Part shown: positions 15,785 to 27,287 of the stretch, one piece after another
Layout of the letters: each line of letters starts with the position of its first letter
Numbering within the stretch: position 1 is the first letter of the stretch
DNA from: Planctomycetota bacterium
GTDB taxonomy: Bacteria > Planctomycetota > Planctomycetia > Gemmatales > Gemmataceae
NCBI GenBank assembly: GCA_016872605.1
Contig: VGZI01000045.1
Location: 1-35,984 of the forward strand
Length of the DNA stretch: 35,984 nt
Direction: 5' to 3'
Translations under genes and position numbers: made by a program
The notes under the pieces: generated by a model
Database searches by the model: none
Told to the model about the DNA's origin: nothing
What the model saw: the letters and a program-made list of their open reading frames with translations, nothing else

Positions 15785-18619
15785 TTACCCGACGACGCTG
15801 ACGCTGCCGGTGCCGCCGTCGATGCGCAGGCGTTGGCCGGTCTTGATGCGGCGATGGACGTCGGGGATGCCGGCGACGGCGGGAAGGCCGAACTCGCGGG
15901 CGACGATGGCCCCGTGCGAAAGCATGCCGCCGGTCTCCATGATCAGGCCGCGTGCGCGGACGAAGAGCGGAACCCAGGCCGGATCGGTCGACGGGCACAC
16001 AAGGATATACGGCTCGTGCGGCATCGTGGCGCCGCCGACGTGTTCCAGCACCCACGCCGGCGCTTCGACGATGCCGGCCGAAAGCGGAATGCCTTGCATC
16101 ATCCCCGCATCGCCGATCGCCAACTCCCGACCGATGGCGTCGAGATCGTCGCTGAAGATCACGGTCGGGACCAGCAGGCTAAGCGCGATTTCGCGTTGGC
16201 GCCGGCGATTTTCGATGATGTCAAAGTACATCTGCGGCGCTTTCGTTTCGGCCAACTTTACGAGTTCGGGAAGTTCATCCAGAGTCAGGAAGAAGATGCC
16301 GTCGCCGAGTTCGTAACGGCGAGCCAGCTCAACAAGCGCTCGCCGGATGAGGGCGTAGCCGCGCAGCATGTGGTGTTTGGCGGTTTCGCGCAGGCCCACA
16401 TAAGTCTGCAAACGGCGCAATTCGGCTTCGACGGCGGGTCGCTGATGGGGCAAGAGGCGTGCTTCGTCAGCGAGCTTGAGCCAGGCGACGTGCCAGGCCT
16501 CAGCGACGTCGATCCCCCTCACCCCCGACCCCTCTCCCCCGGAGGGAAGAGGAGAGAGTGTGCCATCGAGCGATGACGGATCTTCGTTCCAGCGCGGCTT
16601 CGCCAACTCCATCTCCTGGCTGCCGCGATGGCCGAACCGCCTGAGGAAATCGTCACGCGACATTTTCCCTTCACGCATGCTACGGAGGCCCTGCGGCAAG
16701 TCGGTCGCCTCGTCGGGGTGAACCCCCATGACGAGCTCGCGCAAATGGGCCTGGGCTTTCTCCATGCCGATCGCCAGTGCCTCGGTGGGATGGATTTCCT
16801 CCGGCTGCAAACGGGCCGCGAAGCCGCGTTCCAACTCGCCCAGAAGCAACGCCGCGATCGCCGTCGGCTTCAAGCTGTGCCGGGCGAAATCGAAGAGTGT
16901 GAGCTGCATCCAATCGCGCAGCTTTTGCAGCACGGCTAGCGCGCTCAACGTCGTCACGTCTACTCGCTCACCGCTTTCGACCTCGGCCAGGAAAGCCGGC
17001 ACGATCGCCTTCGTGAAATCATCAGCAAACGTCTCGAAGAGGCGCTGCTGACCCACCTGCGACCACCACATCTTGAGAAACAGCCACGGCAACTTGACGA
17101 AGAACCAGAAACCGGCGCGACGCGGATTGAACGTCGCCGAAGGATAGATCGCCTTGTTCGGATGCTTCTTCAAAAAGTCAAAGTTGTGCTCGAACGGCAA
17201 GTCCTTGTACTGCATGCGCGGCTCGCGGCTCAGGTTGCAGTACGGTCGGCCGCAGACCACGTCGAACATGCCGACCTCATCTAACTCCGGATCGGGATCA
17301 AAGCCGAGGTCCCGATACATCTCGCCGAACCCGCCTCGGCCCGACATGAATTGCCGCACGATCGACCACGTCATCGGAGTCGGATCGGGGAGAATCTCCG
17401 AGAGATTGAATCGGCTCCAGACGGTTCCGTTCGGATCGGCCAGTGCCTTGCACGCGGCGATCTCGGCCTGGCGAACCTTCTCGCGCTCGGCCGGATCGAT
17501 CGGCACAGCGGGCGATTTCAGCTTGATGGGCCGCGATTGAAGCAGAAAGTACTCGCCGCGTGACAAGGCCCATTCGATATCGCAGGGCGTTTTGAAGTAA
17601 GCCTCGACACGCAAGCCGAGCTCAGCAAGAGCGCGGACCTGGTCGTCGGTAAGCGACGGATCGTCGCTGCTGCCGGTCTGTCCTTTGCCATCCTCGGCCA
17701 GGGTGGCGACCCGCTCAGTTTTGCGCGAGATCACGCGTTCCTTCGTGGTCAAATGATGCTTGTCGAGCACGAAGCGGTCGGGCGTGACCTTGCCGAGCAC
17801 AATCGCTTCGCCGAGGCCGAACGCCGACTCGATGATGATCTCCGGCGCCTGCGATACAGGATTGGCGGTGAACATGACCCCGGCGACTTCGGCCGGGCAC
17901 ATCATCTGAATGTTGACCGCCGTGCCGAGCAGCCCGTCCATCTTGTGATGCGCGCGATAGGTCACGGCACGTTCGCTGTTCCACGACCGGAAGACGGCGT
18001 TGACGGCGGCGACGAGCATGGCCCAGGGATCGGTCGGGAACGGCTGTCCGGTGCGCTGGGCGAAGATGTCGAGCAGGCGTTGACAACGCTCACCGTTGTC
18101 CGATCCCACGGGTTCGCTGCGCTCACCCCTGGGCTTCAACGTGACTTCCATTGCCTCGCGGTCGATGCCGGCGACAGTGTGTGCGAACATCTCGATGAAG
18201 TGGGCGTACGCTTGCCAGGCGCCTTCGGTATTGCCGGTGCGTTCGCCCATGGCGGCGACGCAAGTTGGGTTGAGCCCGACGTTGAGTACGGTGTCCATCA
18301 TGCCCGGCATCGACTGGGCCGCCCCACTGCGGACCGCGACGAGCAGCGGCTTCGCGCCGACGCCGAGCTTGCGTCCAGCGAGCGTTTCCAGTCGGTCCAG
18401 GTTGGCGCGAAGTTCGGCTTCGAAGCTATCGGGCCAGCGCTCGTTGTGGCGATAAAAGTGGTCGCAGCATTCCGCGGAGACGGTGAATCCGGGCGGGACG
18501 TTGAGTCCGGCTCGCGTCATGTCGGCGAGGCTCGCGCCTTTGCCTCCGATGAGGTGCTTGATGTCGCTGCCGCCGTCCGCTTGATGATTGCCGAAGAAGT
18601 AGATCCAACGATGGGTCAT
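15785..18619 (-). CDS. PEP/pyruvate-binding ATP-grasp protein with swivelling phosphohistidine domain (rifampicin-phosphotransferase-like architecture)
   Basis: The 944-residue protein starts with a PPDK/PEP-synthase nucleotide domain: LIGGKGASLADM near residue 25, GLNVPPGFTVS, VRSGAAQSMPGMMDTVLN near 96-112, then AEVAGVMFTANPV and CDIEWALSRG before LLQSRPI. A long helical middle follows. The C-terminus is a PEP-utiliser mobile domain with GGMLSHGAIVAREFGLPAV, where His902 is the expected phospho-carrier. The PEP/pyruvate TIM barrel of true PpsA or PPDK is absent, so the order resembles rifampicin phosphotransferase (ATP-grasp, substrate region, His domain). Two segments look like translated dispersed repeats (about residues 161-172 and 686-702). 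It is convergent with the broken DUF433 gene; a 93-base gap containing a palindrome separates it from the PQQ gene upstream. Substrate unknown; antibiotic modification is only one possibility. Confidence 0.88.
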   Translation of the reverse strand: MTHRWIYFFGNHQADGGSDIKHLIGGKGASLADMTRAGLNVPPGFTVSAECCDHFYRHNERWPDSFEAELRANLDRLETLAGRKLGVGAKPLLVAVRSGAAQSMPGMMDTVLNVGLNPTCVAAMGERTGNTEGAWQAYAHFIEMFAHTVAGIDREAMEVTLKPRGERSEPVGSDNGERCQRLLDIFAQRTGQPFPTDPWAMLVAAVNAVFRSWNSERAVTYRAHHKMDGLLGTAVNIQMMCPAEVAGVMFTANPVSQAPEIIIESAFGLGEAIVLGKVTPDRFVLDKHHLTTKERVISRKTERVATLAEDGKGQTGSSDDPSLTDDQVRALAELGLRVEAYFKTPCDIEWALSRGEYFLLQSRPIKLKSPAVPIDPAEREKVRQAEIAACKALADPNGTVWSRFNLSEILPDPTPMTWSIVRQFMSGRGGFGEMYRDLGFDPDPELDEVGMFDVVCGRPYCNLSREPRMQYKDLPFEHNFDFLKKHPNKAIYPSATFNPRRAGFWFFVKLPWLFLKMWWSQVGQQRLFETFADDFTKAIVPAFLAEVESGERVDVTTLSALAVLQKLRDWMQLTLFDFARHSLKPTAIAALLLGELERGFAARLQPEEIHPTEALAIGMEKAQAHLRELVMGVHPDEATDLPQGLRSMREGKMSRDDFLRRFGHRGSQEMELAKPRWNEDPSSLDGTLSPLPSGGEGSGVRGIDVAEAWHVAWLKLADEARLLPHQRPAVEAELRRLQTYVGLRETAKHHMLRGYALIRRALVELARRYELGDGIFFLTLDELPELVKLAETKAPQMYFDIIENRRRQREIALSLLVPTVIFSDDLDAIGRELAIGDAGMMQGIPLSAGIVEAPAWVLEHVGGATMPHEPYILVCPSTDPAWVPLFVRARGLIMETGGMLSHGAIVAREFGLPAVAGIPDVHRRIKTGQRLRIDGGTGSVSVVG
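16514..16558 (-). repeat. In-frame dispersed repeat inside the phosphotransferase gene
   Basis: A C-rich plus-strand tract (CCCCTCACCCCCGACC, then CTCTCCC and a GGAGGGAAGAGG arm) is read on the minus strand as LSPLPSGGEGSGVRG. The stretch has the composition of widespread bacterial intergenic repeats, not of the neighbouring domain, and falls in a linker of the middle region. Confidence 0.65.
18103..18138 (-). repeat. In-frame copy of the GAAGCCC-AGGGGTGAG repeat in the phosphotransferase gene
   Basis: Read on the minus strand the unit is GAAGCCCAGGGGTGAG, then CGCAGCGAACCCGTGGGAT, encoding KPRGERSEPVGS. It matches the intergenic units at 18633-18708, 23334-23393 and 27293-27329 at both ends and differs in the centre. 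The peptide sits between the ATP-grasp subregions, probably in a surface loop. Confidence 0.6.
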
Positions 18620-18712: not shown

Positions 18713-21283
18713 CTATTCTACGCGGACCTTGTCTTCGGGGCAGTAGAGGACGGGGCGATTCTCATAGGGGCTCATGAGTCCGCCGCCGACACCGCCGCCG
18801 AAGTAGAGTTGTCGTCGATACCCGTCGGCTGTGCGCGTGACGACGAGCCGCGCCGACGTCGATACGGCGCCCATCTGTTTGGTCAGGTCGAAGGTCCAAA
18901 CGATGTCGCCGGTCTGAGGAACCATGCAGCATGCTTTGCCATTCGTGGTCACCACGAAGACACTGAGTGATCGTTCGTAGACCGGATCACTATCGAGGAC
19001 AGGAGTGCCGATGATCGGGGAATGAAGAAAGTACTTCCAGAGTTCTTTGCCGTCAGCTCGACGGACGCAATAGATATGGGCGTTACGGCAGCCGAAGTAG
19101 ATGCGATGGCCGTCGACGGCGGGAGAATCGATGACGCCGTTGGGAAGCTTGATGCGCCATTGTTCCTTGCCGGTGGCCGCATCGAGGCATTGCAGCGCGC
19201 CACCGGGTCCCTCGGGATTCTTGGTGTCTTCCAAGACGTCTCCATTGCCTGAGGTGACGTAGACCAGGCCGTCCTTGACGACCGGAGTCGACCAGACGGG
19301 ATAGGGGGCCGGAGTTTTCCAGATCACGTCGCCGTTGTTGGCATTGAAACAAAAGACGGCGGTTTCTCCCTTGTCGCCCTTTTGATCGCGATCTTCGGCG
19401 CTGCCGCAGTAGAGGCGACTGCCGACGACGCGCATGCCGCCGCCGAACCGCAGGAGCCGGCCGCGATACTCGGCTGGTGGAAAGCGCCAGGCGACGACGC
19501 CTTCTTTCTTGGCCAGGCTCTTCTGCACGTCGAGGCAGTAGACGCCGTCGTTGCCAGCGCCGATGTAGAGTTTGCCGTTGGCGACGGTCGGGCTTGACTC
19601 CGTCTGGCCGCCGGTCGGGAAACGCCAGAGTTCAGTTCCGTCACTGGCGTCCAAACAAAACACAGCGCAATTCGTGTCGTGATGGAAGCCTTCGCCGAAA
19701 TAGAGCTTGCCGTCCGCGATACAAGGCGTCGAGATCATTTGCCGAAAGTAGCTTCGCTCATACGCCCATTTCTGCACGCCGGTGTGACGATCCAAGCGGA
19801 CCATGGTAGCCTTTTGAAAGGCATCCGAGTAGCAGGCGTAAATGGCATCGCCATCGATAGTCGGCGAGGACGCGAACATGCCGCGGATATTTTCTGGCGC
19901 GACGAACATCGGCTTCAGGTCATCGTTCTCTTCGCGTTCCGCCTTTGCGGTCAGGTTGCCGCTTTGTTGCTTACCGGTCATGGTACCGCCGACATCGATC
20001 TGTCGCCCGAAGACGATCGGCACGAAAGCAACATGTCCTACCAACATCGCGCCGATGATGATTCCCTCTGTGGTTACGGGCAGCGCCGCAAACGCCTGCG
20101 GTTGCCATACGGCCCGGCAGATTCGATATGCCGTGCCGGCGCCGACGGCCAGCGTGGTCACGACTACCGACGTCCAGCCCGGGTCGGTCCAGCGTATTTT
20201 CTCGCTGATGCACCAAAGAACGATCGTGGTGACGACACAGCTGACGGCCATGAACAACAGCACGATCAACTCCGTTCGCGCCGGCGCTTCATTGTCGCCG
20301 TCCGAAAGAGCGTTGAGTTGGCGGCGCCAGGCCCACAAAGCACAGGCCATCGACACGACCGTCATGATAAACCAGAGGCCTGCGGGGGTGCTCCACCAAC
20401 TCTCGCGAATCACGCTGGTCGCATACTCGCCCAGCAGCCAGTGTACCAACAGAATCGAGCTATTGATGCTGATCACGGTGATGAACGCGAGCCATTGGCG
20501 AAAAAGGACGAAGACGCCGCCGAAGATGCTCGGAAACATCATCGCCAGAAGGGCGAGCGGCGCCCCGACCGCCATCGTCGGAATGACGCCGAAGACGAAA
20601 TTCTGAGTGCCGAGTACTGAGTACTGAGTGCTGAGTACTGAGTACAGTTGACTCAGTCCTGACCTCTGACCTCCGACCTCTGACTTCTGACCTCTCCCCC
20701 CTGACTCCTGCTTCTTCGGCGAATACTCCGGACCGAAGCCGGGCTCGAGTTTGTCATTCAGGGGCGGCAGTTTCCCTTTTTTGGCACGATAATCTTTCAG
20801 GACCTTTCGCATTTCCTCGGTCGTGCCGCTGAAGGTCTTGCGAAAGTAAGGTTCCGCAGACACTAACGAGAAAACCACGCGATCCTTCTCGACCTGCGTT
20901 CCCAGCAGTTGAAACCACGTCCCATCCACGAACGCAAAAGTTACGTAGTCCTTTTGCTGCGGCTTGAGAAAGAAAACTATCTCTTGACCCGGTCCGAACC
21001 GCTTGAGCAAAGGTTCGATCTTGTTGTTCTTGAAGGTCTTTTCGTCGGCCACTTTCAGGTTGATCGGCATGTCGCGAAACGGCGCCTTGCCCTTGATGGC
21101 CTCGGTGATCGTCACCATCATGGCGGGCTTGTCGGCCAGGTACTTGTCCACCTTGCCGACGAGCACGTAGGTCGAGCTTCCTTCGATAGCAATCAACGGC
21201 GTCTTGGCGACGATGACGGCGTCGGCTCGCTGCCAAGAAAGTACGACGATCACGGCGAGCGCAAGTGCGAATCGTGTTCGCAT
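18713..21283 (-). CDS. Membrane-anchored PQQ-like beta-propeller protein
   Basis: The frame is open from 21538, but ATG at 21283 is chosen: it follows a GGGGGGA Shine-Dalgarno and opens a signal peptide (MRTRFALALAVIVVLSW). The 856-residue protein has an N-terminal periplasmic-like domain (about 25-190), a low-complexity stretch derived from repeats (about 192-227), about five hydrophobic segments (for example MMFPSIFGGVFVLF, LWFIMTVVSMACALWAW, ELIVLLFMAVSCVVTTIVLW, GIIIGAMLVGHVAFVPIVF), then PQQ-type blades with ELWRFPTGG, GKLYIGAGNDGVYCLD, DVIWKTPAPYPVWSTPVV and ELWKYFLHSPIIGTPV. PQQ-like propellers occur in BamB-type scaffolds and quinoprotein dehydrogenases; no dehydrogenase active site was recognised, so a binding or scaffold role is more likely. 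It is transcribed divergently from groEL1. Confidence 0.85.
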   Translation of the reverse strand: MRTRFALALAVIVVLSWQRADAVIVAKTPLIAIEGSSTYVLVGKVDKYLADKPAMMVTITEAIKGKAPFRDMPINLKVADEKTFKNNKIEPLLKRFGPGQEIVFFLKPQQKDYVTFAFVDGTWFQLLGTQVEKDRVVFSLVSAEPYFRKTFSGTTEEMRKVLKDYRAKKGKLPPLNDKLEPGFGPEYSPKKQESGGRGQKSEVGGQRSGLSQLYSVLSTQYSVLGTQNFVFGVIPTMAVGAPLALLAMMFPSIFGGVFVLFRQWLAFITVISINSSILLVHWLLGEYATSVIRESWWSTPAGLWFIMTVVSMACALWAWRRQLNALSDGDNEAPARTELIVLLFMAVSCVVTTIVLWCISEKIRWTDPGWTSVVVTTLAVGAGTAYRICRAVWQPQAFAALPVTTEGIIIGAMLVGHVAFVPIVFGRQIDVGGTMTGKQQSGNLTAKAEREENDDLKPMFVAPENIRGMFASSPTIDGDAIYACYSDAFQKATMVRLDRHTGVQKWAYERSYFRQMISTPCIADGKLYFGEGFHHDTNCAVFCLDASDGTELWRFPTGGQTESSPTVANGKLYIGAGNDGVYCLDVQKSLAKKEGVVAWRFPPAEYRGRLLRFGGGMRVVGSRLYCGSAEDRDQKGDKGETAVFCFNANNGDVIWKTPAPYPVWSTPVVKDGLVYVTSGNGDVLEDTKNPEGPGGALQCLDAATGKEQWRIKLPNGVIDSPAVDGHRIYFGCRNAHIYCVRRADGKELWKYFLHSPIIGTPVLDSDPVYERSLSVFVVTTNGKACCMVPQTGDIVWTFDLTKQMGAVSTSARLVVTRTADGYRRQLYFGGGVGGGLMSPYENRPVLYCPEDKVRVE
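20603..20709 (-). repeat. Heptamer-type repeat arrays read in frame in the PQQ gene
   Basis: Two short arrays lie side by side: units of TGAGTAC / TGAGTGC (20603-20645) and units of TGACCTC / TGACTTC / CGACCTC (about 20660-20709). On the minus strand they are translated as SVLSTQYSVLGTQ and GGRGQKSEVGGQRSG. They fall exactly between the N-terminal domain and the first membrane segment, so the protein tolerates them as a linker. Confidence 0.75.
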
Positions 21284-21621
21284 GTTCCGATCCCCCCATA
21301 CCGAGCGACGTCCGTTCCATGATTGCGGCAGGAACGGGGTTGGTTCAATCCCATGATAACGACGAGCCCCGCGCAACGCCAACCGATTGACAAAATTTGT
21401 CAGGTGAATCGGCGATTGCTGCCACTTTGACATAAGCGGCGGCGACGCAGAAGCAGCGTCGATGCCACAACCTACACATATGCATATATTTAGGTGAAAC
21501 GGCATCTCTGGCACGCCCATTGCTTTTGTGGGACACACTCGCGGGGAGATTCCCTCGATTGAGTCCGATCATTACCGTCCGCCGTTACGAGGCGGGGCTA
21601 AACGTTTGAGGAGATCGACGA
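21284..21621. promoter_or_regulatory. Divergent control region between the PQQ gene and groEL1
   Basis: This 338-base gap holds the groEL1 sigma-54 promoter (21509-21524), a perfect 15-base palindrome TGACAAAATTTGTCA (21388-21402) about 107 bases upstream of the -24 element, and ATATGCATAT (21478-21487) about 22 bases upstream of it. The first is in the range expected for an enhancer-binding-protein site. No inverted repeat resembling CIRCE (TTAGCACTC-N9-GAGTGCTAA) was found. A GCTAAACG segment near 21598-21605 resembles one arm of the CGTTTAGCG repeat family. Confidence 0.6.
21509..21524 (+). promoter_or_regulatory. Sigma-54 (RpoN) promoter of groEL1
   Basis: The sequence CTGGCACG-CCCA-TTGCTTTT matches the -24/-12 consensus YTGGCACG-N4-TTGCW at every conserved position. 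The GG (21510-21511) and GC (21522-21523) dinucleotides are 12 bases apart, as sigma-54 requires. The predicted start is about 21535, giving a leader of about 87 bases. Sigma-54 holoenzyme needs an AAA+ activator to open the promoter. Confidence 0.8.
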
Positions 21622-23319
<1,698 letters not shown>

Positions 23320-23333
23320 CCAAGAGTAATTTG

Positions 23334-23393
23334 GAAGCCCTGGGGTGAGGTTCTCCGAACCCCAGGGTTCGGAATACCTCACCCTGGGGCTTC
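23334..23393. repeat. 60-nt imperfect palindrome between groEL1 and groES
   Basis: Arms 23334-23363 and 23364-23393 are reverse complements with only a few mismatches. Each begins GAAGCCC and contains GGTGAGGT and CCGAACC. It is the same inverted double unit as at 18633-18708. Once transcribed it would fold into a long hairpin just after the groEL1 stop and before the groES start; there is no T-run after it, so it may affect RNA stability or processing more than termination. Confidence 0.85.
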
Positions 23394-23412
23394 AAATAAG
23401 GAACGAAAAACC

Positions 23413-23718
23413 ATGAGCAAAGAGAAAGAAAAGATTCGTCCGCTGGATGATCGCATTGTCGTCGAGCCGCTCGAAGCGGAAGAAAAAACCGCCGGCGGCA
23501 TCTTGCTGCCGGACACGGCCAAACAGAAACCACAGCGCGGCGTCGTCGTCGCTGCCGGCCCTGGCAAAATGCTCGACAACGGGAAACGCGCCGCACTCGC
23601 CGTCGCCAAAGGGGACGAAGTCCTTTACGGGAAGTACTCCGGCAGCGACGTCAAGATCGGTAACAAAGAGGTCAAGATCCTTCGCGAAAGCGACATCCTC
23701 GCCAAGATTGTCAAGTAA
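23413..23718 (+). CDS. groES: Co-chaperonin GroES
   Basis: The 101-residue protein is of normal GroES length. It has the N-terminal strand [20 protein letters not shown], the mobile loop [16 protein letters not shown] that docks on GroEL, the [14 protein letters not shown] roof region, and the C-terminal [13 protein letters not shown]. GroES caps the GroEL ring to close the folding chamber. Here it lies between two groEL paralogues, 93 bases downstream of groEL1 and 92 bases upstream of groEL2, so it may serve both. AAGGAA lies somewhat far upstream of the ATG. Confidence 0.97.
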
Positions 23719-23727
23719 TACATTCCC

Positions 23728-23785
23728 CGTTTAGCGGCCGTGCAGAAGCGCCAGGCGTCTGGAGCTTTCACGCGAGCGCTAAACG
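23728..23785. repeat. CGTTTAGCG inverted repeat between groES and groEL2
   Basis: CGTTTAGCG at 23728-23736 and CGCTAAACG at 23777-23785 are perfect inverted copies about 40 bases apart. The same arms bound the hairpin at 14501-14538. It fills most of the groES-groEL2 gap. Confidence 0.7.
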
Positions 23786-23810
23786 AAGAGAAATCTGGAG
23801 TTGAACCATT

Positions 23811-25450
<1,640 letters not shown>

Positions 25451-25451
<1 letters not shown>

Positions 25452-25590
25452 AAAGCTGTCAACCGTCAGCTTTCAGCTATCAGCCGAACGGAGTTCGGTG
25501 ATAGAATTGCAATGGTGGCATCATCAGCTATCAGTTGTCAGGTTCAGCTTCCCGGCTGATAGCTGACGACTGATAGCTGACAGCTTTTTT
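25451..25590 (+). terminator. Inverted repeat with T-run after groEL2 (likely terminator or attenuator)
   Basis: An outer arm at 25451-25486 (starting AAAAGCTGTCAACC) is largely complementary to 25553-25589 (ending GATAGCTGACAGC) and is followed by TTTTTT at 25585-25590. The arms are made of CAGCTATCAG / TGATAGCTGA units, a motif that also occurs at about 35126-35192, so it is a repeat-derived structure. dnaJ starts 28 bases later, so readthrough or a further promoter would be needed for its expression. Confidence 0.55.
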
Positions 25591-25618
25591 GCTGACAGCT
25601 TTTTCGTCCGGAGTCGCC

Positions 25619-26704
25619 ATGACCAAGCGCGATTATTACGAAGTGCTGGGCGTCGCCAAGACGGCCTCGGACGATGAGATCAAGAAGGCCTACCGCGACC
25701 TGGCGATGAAGTACCATCCCGATCGCAATCCGGGGGATGAAGAAGCCGCCAACAAGTTCAAAGAGGCGGCCGAGGCCTATGCCGTCTTGAGCGATCCGGA
25801 CAAGCGCCAGCTCTATGATCGTGCCGGTCATGCCGGAGTCGAAGGCGGCGGCGGCATCCCGCAGTTCGGCAACCTCGATGACATTCTGCGCCACTTCGGC
25901 GAGATGTTCGGCGGGATGGGGGGCCTTGGCGGGGCGCTCGGCTCTTTTTTTCAGAACGCATTCGGGGCCAGGGAGGAGGGACCTCCGGTCAGTAGGCTCA
26001 AAGTCGTCATCGACCTTCCCGAGGCATTCGCCGGATGTTCGAAGCGACTCGATATTCAAACACCTGACCTGTGCCCCGATTGCGAAGGAAGCGGAGCAAA
26101 AAAGGGCACAAAGCCGACGACGTGCCGAAAATGCGGGGGCCAGGGACAGGTCCTCTCGCGAGGCTTTGGCATGGTTCGCGTCACGGAGTGTGCGGCCTGC
26201 GGCGGGCGAGGCAGCATCAATACCGACCCATGTGCGCGCTGTCAGGGGCATGGTCGCCTCAACGCCGCACGTACGATCGAAGTGACCATTCCGGCGGGCA
26301 TTCAGACGGGCGAAGCCATAACGTTGCGAGGGCAGGGGGTTGTCGCCGAGCCCGGAATGCCGCGCGGCGACCTTCTGTGCGTCATCGAGGTCGGGCCGCA
26401 CGATGTCTTCAAACGCGAAGGCGAGCACCTCGTCTGCCAAAAGGAAATCACCTTCGCCCAGGCGGCGCTTGGAGGTGATATCGAAATCCCCGGCATCGAT
26501 GGGGCGTTCCAGCAATCGATTCGCCCGGGCATTCAGAGTGGCAATGTCCTGCGCATTCCCGGCAAGGGCATGCCCATCCGTGGCGCCGGAGGCCGGCGCG
26601 GCGACTTGCATGTGATCCTCGTCGTCAAGACGCCGCGCAACCTGAACAAACGCCAGGAAGAGCTTTATCGCGAACTGGCGGAGTTGGATCGCCAGTCCAG
26701 TTAG
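25619..26704 (+). CDS. dnaJ: Co-chaperone DnaJ (class I Hsp40)
   Basis: ATG at 25619 begins [14 protein letters not shown], the conserved DnaJ start; the frame extends ten codons further but that part is repeat sequence. The 361-residue protein has the J-domain (residues 1-70, HPD at 33-35), a short Gly/Phe-type linker ([14 protein letters not shown]), four zinc-binding CxxCxGxG motifs ([32 protein letters not shown]) and the C-terminal peptide-binding domains. The HPD motif stimulates DnaK ATPase. It is followed after 73 bases by grpE. dnaK itself is not in the window. The frame is intact and of typical length, slightly shorter than the E. coli protein. Confidence 0.96.
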
Positions 26705-26777
26705 CGCCGATTGCGGCCCTGCGCTCGCAAACAGCTTTCCGACCGAGAAGCCGCCAGCAGCGATGAGTGAGGACACG

Positions 26778-27287
26778 ATGAGCGAAGAAGCCAACGCCGC
26801 AGTCGAGCAACCATCGGCTCCAACGTCGCCGCAGGATGACTTGGAAGCGATCAAGAAGGAGCGCGACGAGTACCTCGACTTGGCCACGCGCACGCGCGCG
26901 GAGTTTGAGAATTATCAGAAGCGAGTTCAGCGCGACCGCGAGATGGATCGGAAATACGCGTTTGGGCCTTTAGCGGAGAGTTTGCTGCCGATTCTCGACA
27001 ACCTGGATCGCGCATTGGCCGCCGCCAAACAGGCCGGCGAAACAGGGCCCTTGGTTCAGGGCGTCACCATGGTTCAGGCGCAGTTTCTGGAAATGCTCAA
27101 GCGTCACGGCGTCACGCGCATCGAATGTGAAGGGAAGCCCTTTGATCCGCACCTACACCAGGCCATTGTGCAGCAGCCGAACAATGACGTGGAGCCGAAC
27201 ACAATTTTGCATGTGGTCGAGCACGGCTTCGTGAACCAGGACCGCGTGCTGCGGCCCGCGAAAGTCATCGTTTCGACAAAGGGATAA
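26778..27287 (+). CDS. grpE: Nucleotide exchange factor GrpE
   Basis: The protein has an acidic disordered start (MSEEANAAVEQPSAPTSPQ), a long coiled-coil helix (DLEAIKKERDEYLDLATRT, then RAEFENYQKRVQRDRE) and the C-terminal beta domain with ILHVVEHGF and VLRPAKVIVSTKG, as in GrpE. It releases ADP from DnaK. ATG at 26778 is preferred because TGAGGA lies 4 bases upstream; an ATG five codons earlier (26763) lacks a ribosome binding site. From 26778 the length is 169 residues, typical for the family. It probably shares a transcript with dnaJ. Confidence 0.95.
   Translation: MSEEANAAVEQPSAPTSPQDDLEAIKKERDEYLDLATRTRAEFENYQKRVQRDREMDRKYAFGPLAESLLPILDNLDRALAAAKQAGETGPLVQGVTMVQAQFLEMLKRHGVTRIECEGKPFDPHLHQAIVQQPNNDVEPNTILHVVEHGFVNQDRVLRPAKVIVSTKG

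Follow-up and report, generated by a model that had tools for sequence, protein, structure and literature searches.

A sigma-54-type promoter paired with an upstream dyad before planctomycete chaperone genes suggests an unusual protein-stress response switch

The chaperonin cluster and its upstream region

The window analysed here, 35,984 nucleotides in full, is contig 45 (VGZI01000045.1) of the 6,697,954-base genome of a Planctomycetota bacterium from the family Gemmataceae. This genome is referred to below as the own genome or G000, other genomes carry G numbers, and individual loci carry L numbers. The window contains the chaperone cluster groEL1-groES-groEL2-dnaJ-grpE, preceded by a sigma-54-type -24/-12 promoter element and, farther upstream, by a dyad with the features of an enhancer. 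Since the same pair recurs before chaperone genes of other planctomycetes, it suggests an unusual switch for the protein-stress response. The features are as follows.

21416..21436, + strand: putative enhancer (activator site) TTGCTGCCACTTTGACATAAG, the best matrix site in the 36 kb window
21420-21432, + strand: dyad core TGCCACTTTGACA, 89 nt upstream of the -24 element
21509..21524, + strand: sigma-54-type -24/-12 promoter element TGGCACGCCCATTGCT, an exact match, conserved in 69/80 upstream regions
21534..21534, + strand: expected transcription start, approximate, placed by the usual spacing past the -12 element
21622..23319, + strand: groEL1 (PF00118; TIGR02348 above cut-off)
23413..23718, + strand: groES (PF00166)
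23811..25451, + strand: groEL2 (PF00118; TIGR02348 above cut-off)
25589..26704, + strand: dnaJ, start codon uncertain (PF00226, PF01556, PF00684)
26763..27287, + strand: grpE (PF01025)

All five genes, assigned by profile matches, run in the same direction, and their order and spacing suggest that dnaJ and grpE would be co-transcribed with groEL1. The closest relatives of groEL1 lie on contigs labelled Singulisphaera sp. (88%), Gemmataceae (86%) and Gemmatales (81%). According to the part of PMC2754498 considered here, Rhodopirellula baltica has the identical order by locus number, namely Cpn60 (RB8966), Cpn10 (RB8969), GroEL (RB8970), DnaJ (RB8972) and GrpE (RB8974), and these five genes are heat-induced.

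A conserved -24/-12 element before groEL1

The initial annotation had placed a sigma-54 promoter in front of groEL1, and the site, its spacing and its distance to the gene were all reproduced. In CTGGCACGCCCATTGCTTTT, the T of TGGCAC is position 21509, the GG-N10-GC spacing is exact, and 98 bases separate the -12 GC (21522-21523) from the groEL1 ATG (21622). The pattern TGGCACGNNNNTTGC has a single zero-mismatch match in the window. Weaker matches are uninformative, since up to three mismatches gave 144 matches in the window against 145.3 expected. On the scale of the genome, the perfect form TGGCACGNNNNTTGCW occurs three times, the element at 21509-21524 among them, and with up to one mismatch it occurs 62 times, compared with 84 for the reversed pattern. 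The match alone is therefore no proof, and this count would be compatible with a chance match in a GC-rich genome. Since a single genome could not decide the matter, conservation among relatives was examined.

From one scan of genome contigs with GroEL1, we took the best 80 of 586 relatives; the 80 upstream regions comprise 79 loci and the window, with L072 (126 nt) left out. A GG-N10-GC site scoring at least 6 of 7.5 was present in 69 of these regions, and one scoring at least 5 in 76. The corresponding numbers were 1/80 and 5/80 for the antisense control, 0.45 and 4.0 for shuffled sequence (mean of 20 rounds), 0/80 and 2/80 inside genes, and 0/66 and 1/66 far upstream. Because the score demands the GG and GC letters, these letters themselves are no evidence, and it is the excess over the controls that counts. 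Eleven regions score below 6, and one of the two lowest is L137, the sole locus with a non-planctomycete label (Spartobacteria). The GG/GC pair is thus retained in close and distant relatives, and the sigma-54 reading survived the sequence test that had been set for it in advance. Conservation is stronger evidence for the predicted site than the match is, and judged by it the sigma-54-type -24/-12 site before groEL1 is real. Chance resemblance is hardly credible in view of this conservation and of the coupling to the dyad described below (44 matches against none).

Other heat-shock controls

The CIRCE operator reads TTAGCACTC-N9-GAGTGCTAA. With up to three mismatches allowed, it was found nowhere in the window, which confirms the absence already remarked on in the initial annotation. 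HrcA had no match in the own genome, and among 149 genomes of the phylum it matched in one, weakly (24.1 bits against a cut-off of 22.2), compared with 7 of 14 control genomes. The absence of CIRCE is in keeping with HrcA having no match in the own genome and in 148 of the 149 sampled. The heat-shock promoter of sigma-32 resembles GTTGAA-N13-CCCCAT, and no such site was present in the window at up to two mismatches; the rpoH gene was not searched for.

The main groEL1 start could nevertheless belong to a sigma-70-type or other heat-shock promoter, with the sigma-54 promoter being minor and conditional. A sigma-70-like hexamer pair (9/12) lies at 21462-21490 on the + strand and weighs against sigma-54 exclusivity; on both strands of 20700-23900, two such pairs were found against 0.7 expected. 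Sigma-54 promoters lack basal activity without an activator, which makes their presence before essential chaperones surprising and speaks for an additional source of the basal expression that essential chaperonins need. R. baltica also has rpoH, according to the part of PMC2754498 considered. On the other side stands the window itself, free of sigma-32-like and CIRCE sites at the thresholds given above, and we regard this explanation as improbable.

A dyad upstream of the promoter

When the sequence upstream of the -24 element was searched for inverted words with a spacer, one result stood out: TGCC-N5-GGCA, which occurs in 41 of the 76 regions (0.4 expected). Refinement of this word gave a symmetric matrix with the approximate consensus CTGCCAAWTTGGCAG. 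In most regions its best site is found 80-125 nt ahead of the -24 element, and in a few it is more distant; in round figures, the conserved dyad sits about 90-115 nt upstream. Sites scoring at least 12 occurred in 68 of the 74 regions of at least 180 nt, compared with none in nine shuffle rounds, one in the tenth, and 0/80 inside genes. Since this matrix was trained on the same regions on which it was scored, the window was judged with a matrix from which it and its two nearest relatives had been excluded. Here too, the top score in the 36 kb belonged to the site at 21416-21436, with 15.8 against 11.2 for the next.

A perfect palindrome, TGACAAAATTTGTCA at 21388-21402, exists as a single exact copy in the genome and was also considered as the enhancer. 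The form TGACA-N5-TGTCA does not occur in the upstream sequence (up to 600 nt) of the 80 relatives, and for this reason the dyad at 21420-21432 replaced it as the candidate.

Further features were seen between the dyad and groEL1. A second dyad, TAAGT-N15-ACTTA (up to one mismatch per half), sits between the first dyad and the -24 element, often near -43 or -53 from the latter; with a spacing of exactly 15, 16 of the 123 segments contain it where 1.6 would be expected (for example L087, L091, L146, L170, L177 and L186). It emerged from the look for an IHF-like site, which was not established as such in these segments. Behind the promoter, CTGYCA, which resembles half of the putative enhancer, stands 39-44 nt past the TGGCAC start in 48 of 69 groEL1 leaders (loci among L060-L139). 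This position is nearly fixed and just past the expected start; anywhere at 20-80 the motif occurs in 53/69 leaders, compared with 7/69 for the antisense motif and 0/44 at 80-140. It is absent in the window and rare in the other loci of the putative regulon (8/53). The groEL1 leader contains a short hairpin-like GGGGAGATTCCC at 21544-21557, and L060, the closest relative, has a similar AGGGAGATTCCCT at the corresponding position; the mean fold z-score over 66 leaders was -0.85.

The dyad and promoter as a pair across Planctomycetota

We then combined dyad and promoter into one pattern with zero mismatches allowed. It gave 10 matches in five of seven genomes, and the reversed pattern gave one. 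A slightly stricter version was run on the 149 genomes and matched 44 times, in 32 genomes, whereas its reversed form never matched; 117 genomes had no match at this strictness. The downstream gene was taken as the longest reading frame that begins no more than about 450 nt behind the match, and was classed by BLAST against seeds; it was a chaperone in 38 of the 44 cases (GroEL 16, DnaK 13, Hsp20 4, GroES 3 and ClpB 2). The remaining six comprise five receiver-only proteins and one contig end without a class (L183). The first gene differs among loci: groES precedes groEL in L164 and L192, a receiver-only protein is followed by groES in L177, and a small protein, metal-ribbon-like by eye, is followed by groES in L184. 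Nine further matches from the seven-genome scan precede GroEL (3), DnaK (2), Hsp20 (1), a receiver (1) and two genes that do not fit (L148, glycosyltransferase-like by eye, and L149).

In the own genome, for which the list is partial and covers Hsp70 genes, groEL genes and pattern matches, the pair also stands before dnaK (L300) and a second groES-groEL (L267). The initial annotation had envisaged that an activator could tie GroEL1 to a particular signal. Its sigma-54 site was borne out, but the dyad and promoter are not exclusive to GroEL1, being found before dnaK, groES, hsp20 and clpB in other planctomycetes as well.

Receiver-only proteins of about 120-155 residues recur behind the pair (L145, L152, L160, L178, L180, L191 and, before groES, L177), and the one checked, from L145, matches PF00072. 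At L041 (G000:C42), a strong dyad (18.8) with a -24/-12-like site 198 nt away precedes a short protein that is DksA-like by eye, of which a 45-residue piece matched no Pfam family. Elsewhere in the window, a large protein at 15785-18619 on the - strand carries PF01326 and PF00391 and is PEP synthase- or dikinase-like; it does not reach the cut-off of any specific NCBIfam model listed.

A candidate activator and its neighbours

The own genome has a single match to rpoN (PF04552 at C106:9518-9991, 201 bits). The sigma-54 activator domain is matched 17 times in it, 11 of these matches being strong (E 1.8e-55 or better). The most likely candidate for binding the dyad, judged by distribution and gene neighbourhood, is the NtrC-type protein G000:C65:16614-18098, which combines a receiver (PF00072), a sigma-54 AAA+ domain (PF00158) and a Fis-type helix-turn-helix (PF02954). 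The GAFTGA loop of such proteins contacts sigma-54; the candidate reads HSFTGA, and most of its aligned relatives GAFTGA or GSFTGA.

Activators were compared in 12 genomes, the own genome and 11 chosen for carrying the dyad, with 75 proteins in all and incomplete sampling of G144, G076 and G063. In 10 of the 11 other genomes, one protein pairs with the candidate as reciprocal best match, at 43-53% identity. The low-identity matches are doubtful, since 43% is the background between activators and a later search gave a different gene as the true counterpart in G063 and G076. In the tree, the candidate groups with members from six further genomes (98/80 support); the bootstrap was unsettled and 13 of the 75 rows were removed by a motif filter. 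In the genomes with named contigs, one clear best match was present in eight of nine (451-905 bits against 321-387 for the next), which in G002 is divided between two fragments. The remaining one, a metagenome-assembled genome of 3.2 Mb, has a 316-bit match only. At E<=1e-120, the candidate is matched in 86 of the 149 genomes. The strict pattern occurs in 25 of these 86 and in 7 of the 63 others (hand count; Fisher p 0.009, with kinship ignored).

To characterise the surroundings, 46 candidate loci were read, consisting of the own locus, five earlier ones and 40 more from the 86 genomes, mostly the best-scoring; among them G064 and G090 were already known from their coordinates to have a dyad match close by, and G080 to have an adjacent dnaK. 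Of the 46 stretches, 35 have a short histidine kinase adjoining the candidate and 16 contain dnaK, which in 15 cases is no more than 1.5 kb away. In 15 of these 16 (the exception is L341), dnaK is preceded by a dyad scoring at least 12; eight (L336, L337, L339, L340, L345, L346, L347 and L348) also have, between that dyad and dnaK, an in-register -24/-12 site with a score of 5 or more. Three kinases were examined and contain HisKA and HATPase-type domains only; one of them opens with a hydrophobic stretch, by eye. A DnaK search within 1.5 kb around the 75 activators gave two matches, both in the candidate family, one being the Hsp70-like gene of the own genome.

Two other arrangements were noted. 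NtrC-type genes near dnaK-clpB in G037 and G081 (L239, L255) were considered as regulators and rejected: they are convergent with the chaperone genes and about 4 to 5 kb distant from dnaK. The NtrC-type gene of L239 is adjoined by a PilC-like gene (by eye) and has the clpB end within 1.5 kb. In G080, the dyad at L263:6082-6102 follows the activator gene and is only some 50 nt away from the start of dnaK, towards which it has no in-register -24/-12 site.

A proposed circuit for chaperone control

What can be read directly from the DNA is the promoter, the putative enhancer, the classes of genes behind them and the gene neighbourhood. On this basis, we propose that sigma-54 polymerase waits in a closed complex at 21509-21524, before groEL1-groES-groEL2-dnaJ-grpE. 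The short histidine kinase that is the usual partner of the candidate would phosphorylate the NtrC-type activator, presumably under protein-folding stress such as heat. The activator could then bind the TGCC-N5-GACA dyad 89 nt upstream of the promoter and remodel the closed complex, opening the promoter by ATP hydrolysis. Such remodelling is the established mechanism of sigma-54 activation. The identical dyad and promoter would drive dnaK, other groES-groEL genes, hsp20 and clpB in planctomycetes. Since they stand before all these genes, a single chaperone regulon may replace the one that HrcA controls elsewhere. In R. baltica, chaperones rise in heat and rpoH, rpoE and rpoN are not regulated, and the authors of that study propose a markedly different response cascade, according to the part of PMC2754498 considered; an unchanged rpoN fits control carried by an activator. 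That promoter, dyad and candidate activator form one chaperone regulon answering a protein-folding-stress signal is, in our estimation, reasonably probable.

In addition to the hexamer pair discussed above, several observations weigh against this proposal. The right half of the window dyad deviates from the consensus, and the promoters at the own dnaK (L300) and second groES (L267) are weaker. The own candidate is followed by an Hsp70-like gene (PF00012) instead of dnaK and has no adjoining kinase. Among the 46 loci, 11 lack an adjacent kinase and 30 have no dnaK in the stretch, although some stretches end early; eight of the 16 dnaK-linked loci have no in-register -24/-12 site scoring 5. Seven of the 32 strict-pattern genomes lack the candidate at E<=1e-120, and ClpB adjoins two activators of other families (L250 and L239).

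The last two points, together with the 11 strong activators of the own genome, would also be expected if promoter and enhancer were real and chaperone-specific, and the activator were another NtrC-type protein or differed between lineages. Three of the seven genomes (G008, G040 and G101) belong to one genus, and G008 and G101 carry a more distant member of the candidate's tree clade. Members of the candidate family have dnaK nearby in 16 of the 46 loci, whereas no other of the 75 activators has DnaK within 1.5 kb. We consider a different activator rather unlikely, though far from negligible, and retain the candidate in the proposed regulon.

A broader version of the circuit is offered more tentatively, and we would sooner doubt it than rely on it. 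It is possible that the HrcA and sigma-32 switches have been replaced in Planctomycetota by an enhancer-driven one. Its components would be a kinase that has no recognisable sensor domain and an NtrC-type partner, in many cases encoded together with dnaK; they would gauge how much free DnaK is available and induce the main chaperones through one enhancer. That the kinase has no recognisable sensor domain, together with the link to dnaK, would point to chaperone supply as the signal; the receiver-only protein of the regulon could act as a phosphate sink or in feedback.

Comparison with known systems

The promoter class is not new. A matrix study (PMC12316311, PLoS One 2025), in the part considered here, already predicts sigma-54 promoters for the GroEL, GroES, IbpA, GrpE, DnaJ and DnaK groups, enriched in Planctomycetia and fewer in Phycisphaerae. 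It likewise finds such promoters at chaperones, but assigns no enhancer sequence or activator in that part, and its main text has no occurrences of UAS, 'upstream activat' or HrcA. In the literature searched, we found no enhancer or activator for planctomycete chaperone genes; Studholme and Dixon 2004, on the activators of Pirellula, may cover part of this ground. In Chlamydia trachomatis, the hrcA-grpE-dnaK operon has tandem sigma-66 and sigma-54 promoters (PMC8762339, in the part considered), so that a chaperone operon again has a sigma-54 promoter beside another. There, HrcA and CIRCE take part as well, whereas the own genome has no HrcA match and the window has no CIRCE. The HrcA/CIRCE system of other bacteria has the identical targets, groE and dnaK, but works by repression rather than activation, and in the phylum HrcA was matched weakly in one of 149 genomes.

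For heat-shock control in planctomycetes, the present analysis offers a specific proposed circuit, naming both the sites on the DNA and a candidate for the activator. If true, it would show how tightly a sigma-54 switch can be set for a housekeeping need. In Bradyrhizobium, groESL3 is one of several groESL copies, is driven by NifA and sigma-54, and is tied to nitrogen fixation. It resembles the cluster described here as a chaperonin operon with an enhancer-dependent sigma-54 promoter. However, the NifA site there is TGT-N10-ACA, in contrast to the TGCC-N5-GGCA-like dyad, which covers dnaK, hsp20 and clpB. In Myxococcus xanthus, HsfA and HsfB form a two-component system that activates lonD, HsfA being NtrC-type and sigma-54-dependent. 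By description, the proposed circuit is alike in that a histidine kinase and its partner activate a heat-shock gene; it differs in phylum and in its targets, the main chaperone set here and a protease gene in Myxococcus. The groESL3/NifA system, which the initial annotation had named as precedent, is probably not the nearest model, and an HsfA/HsfB-like heat-shock two-component activator probably fits better.
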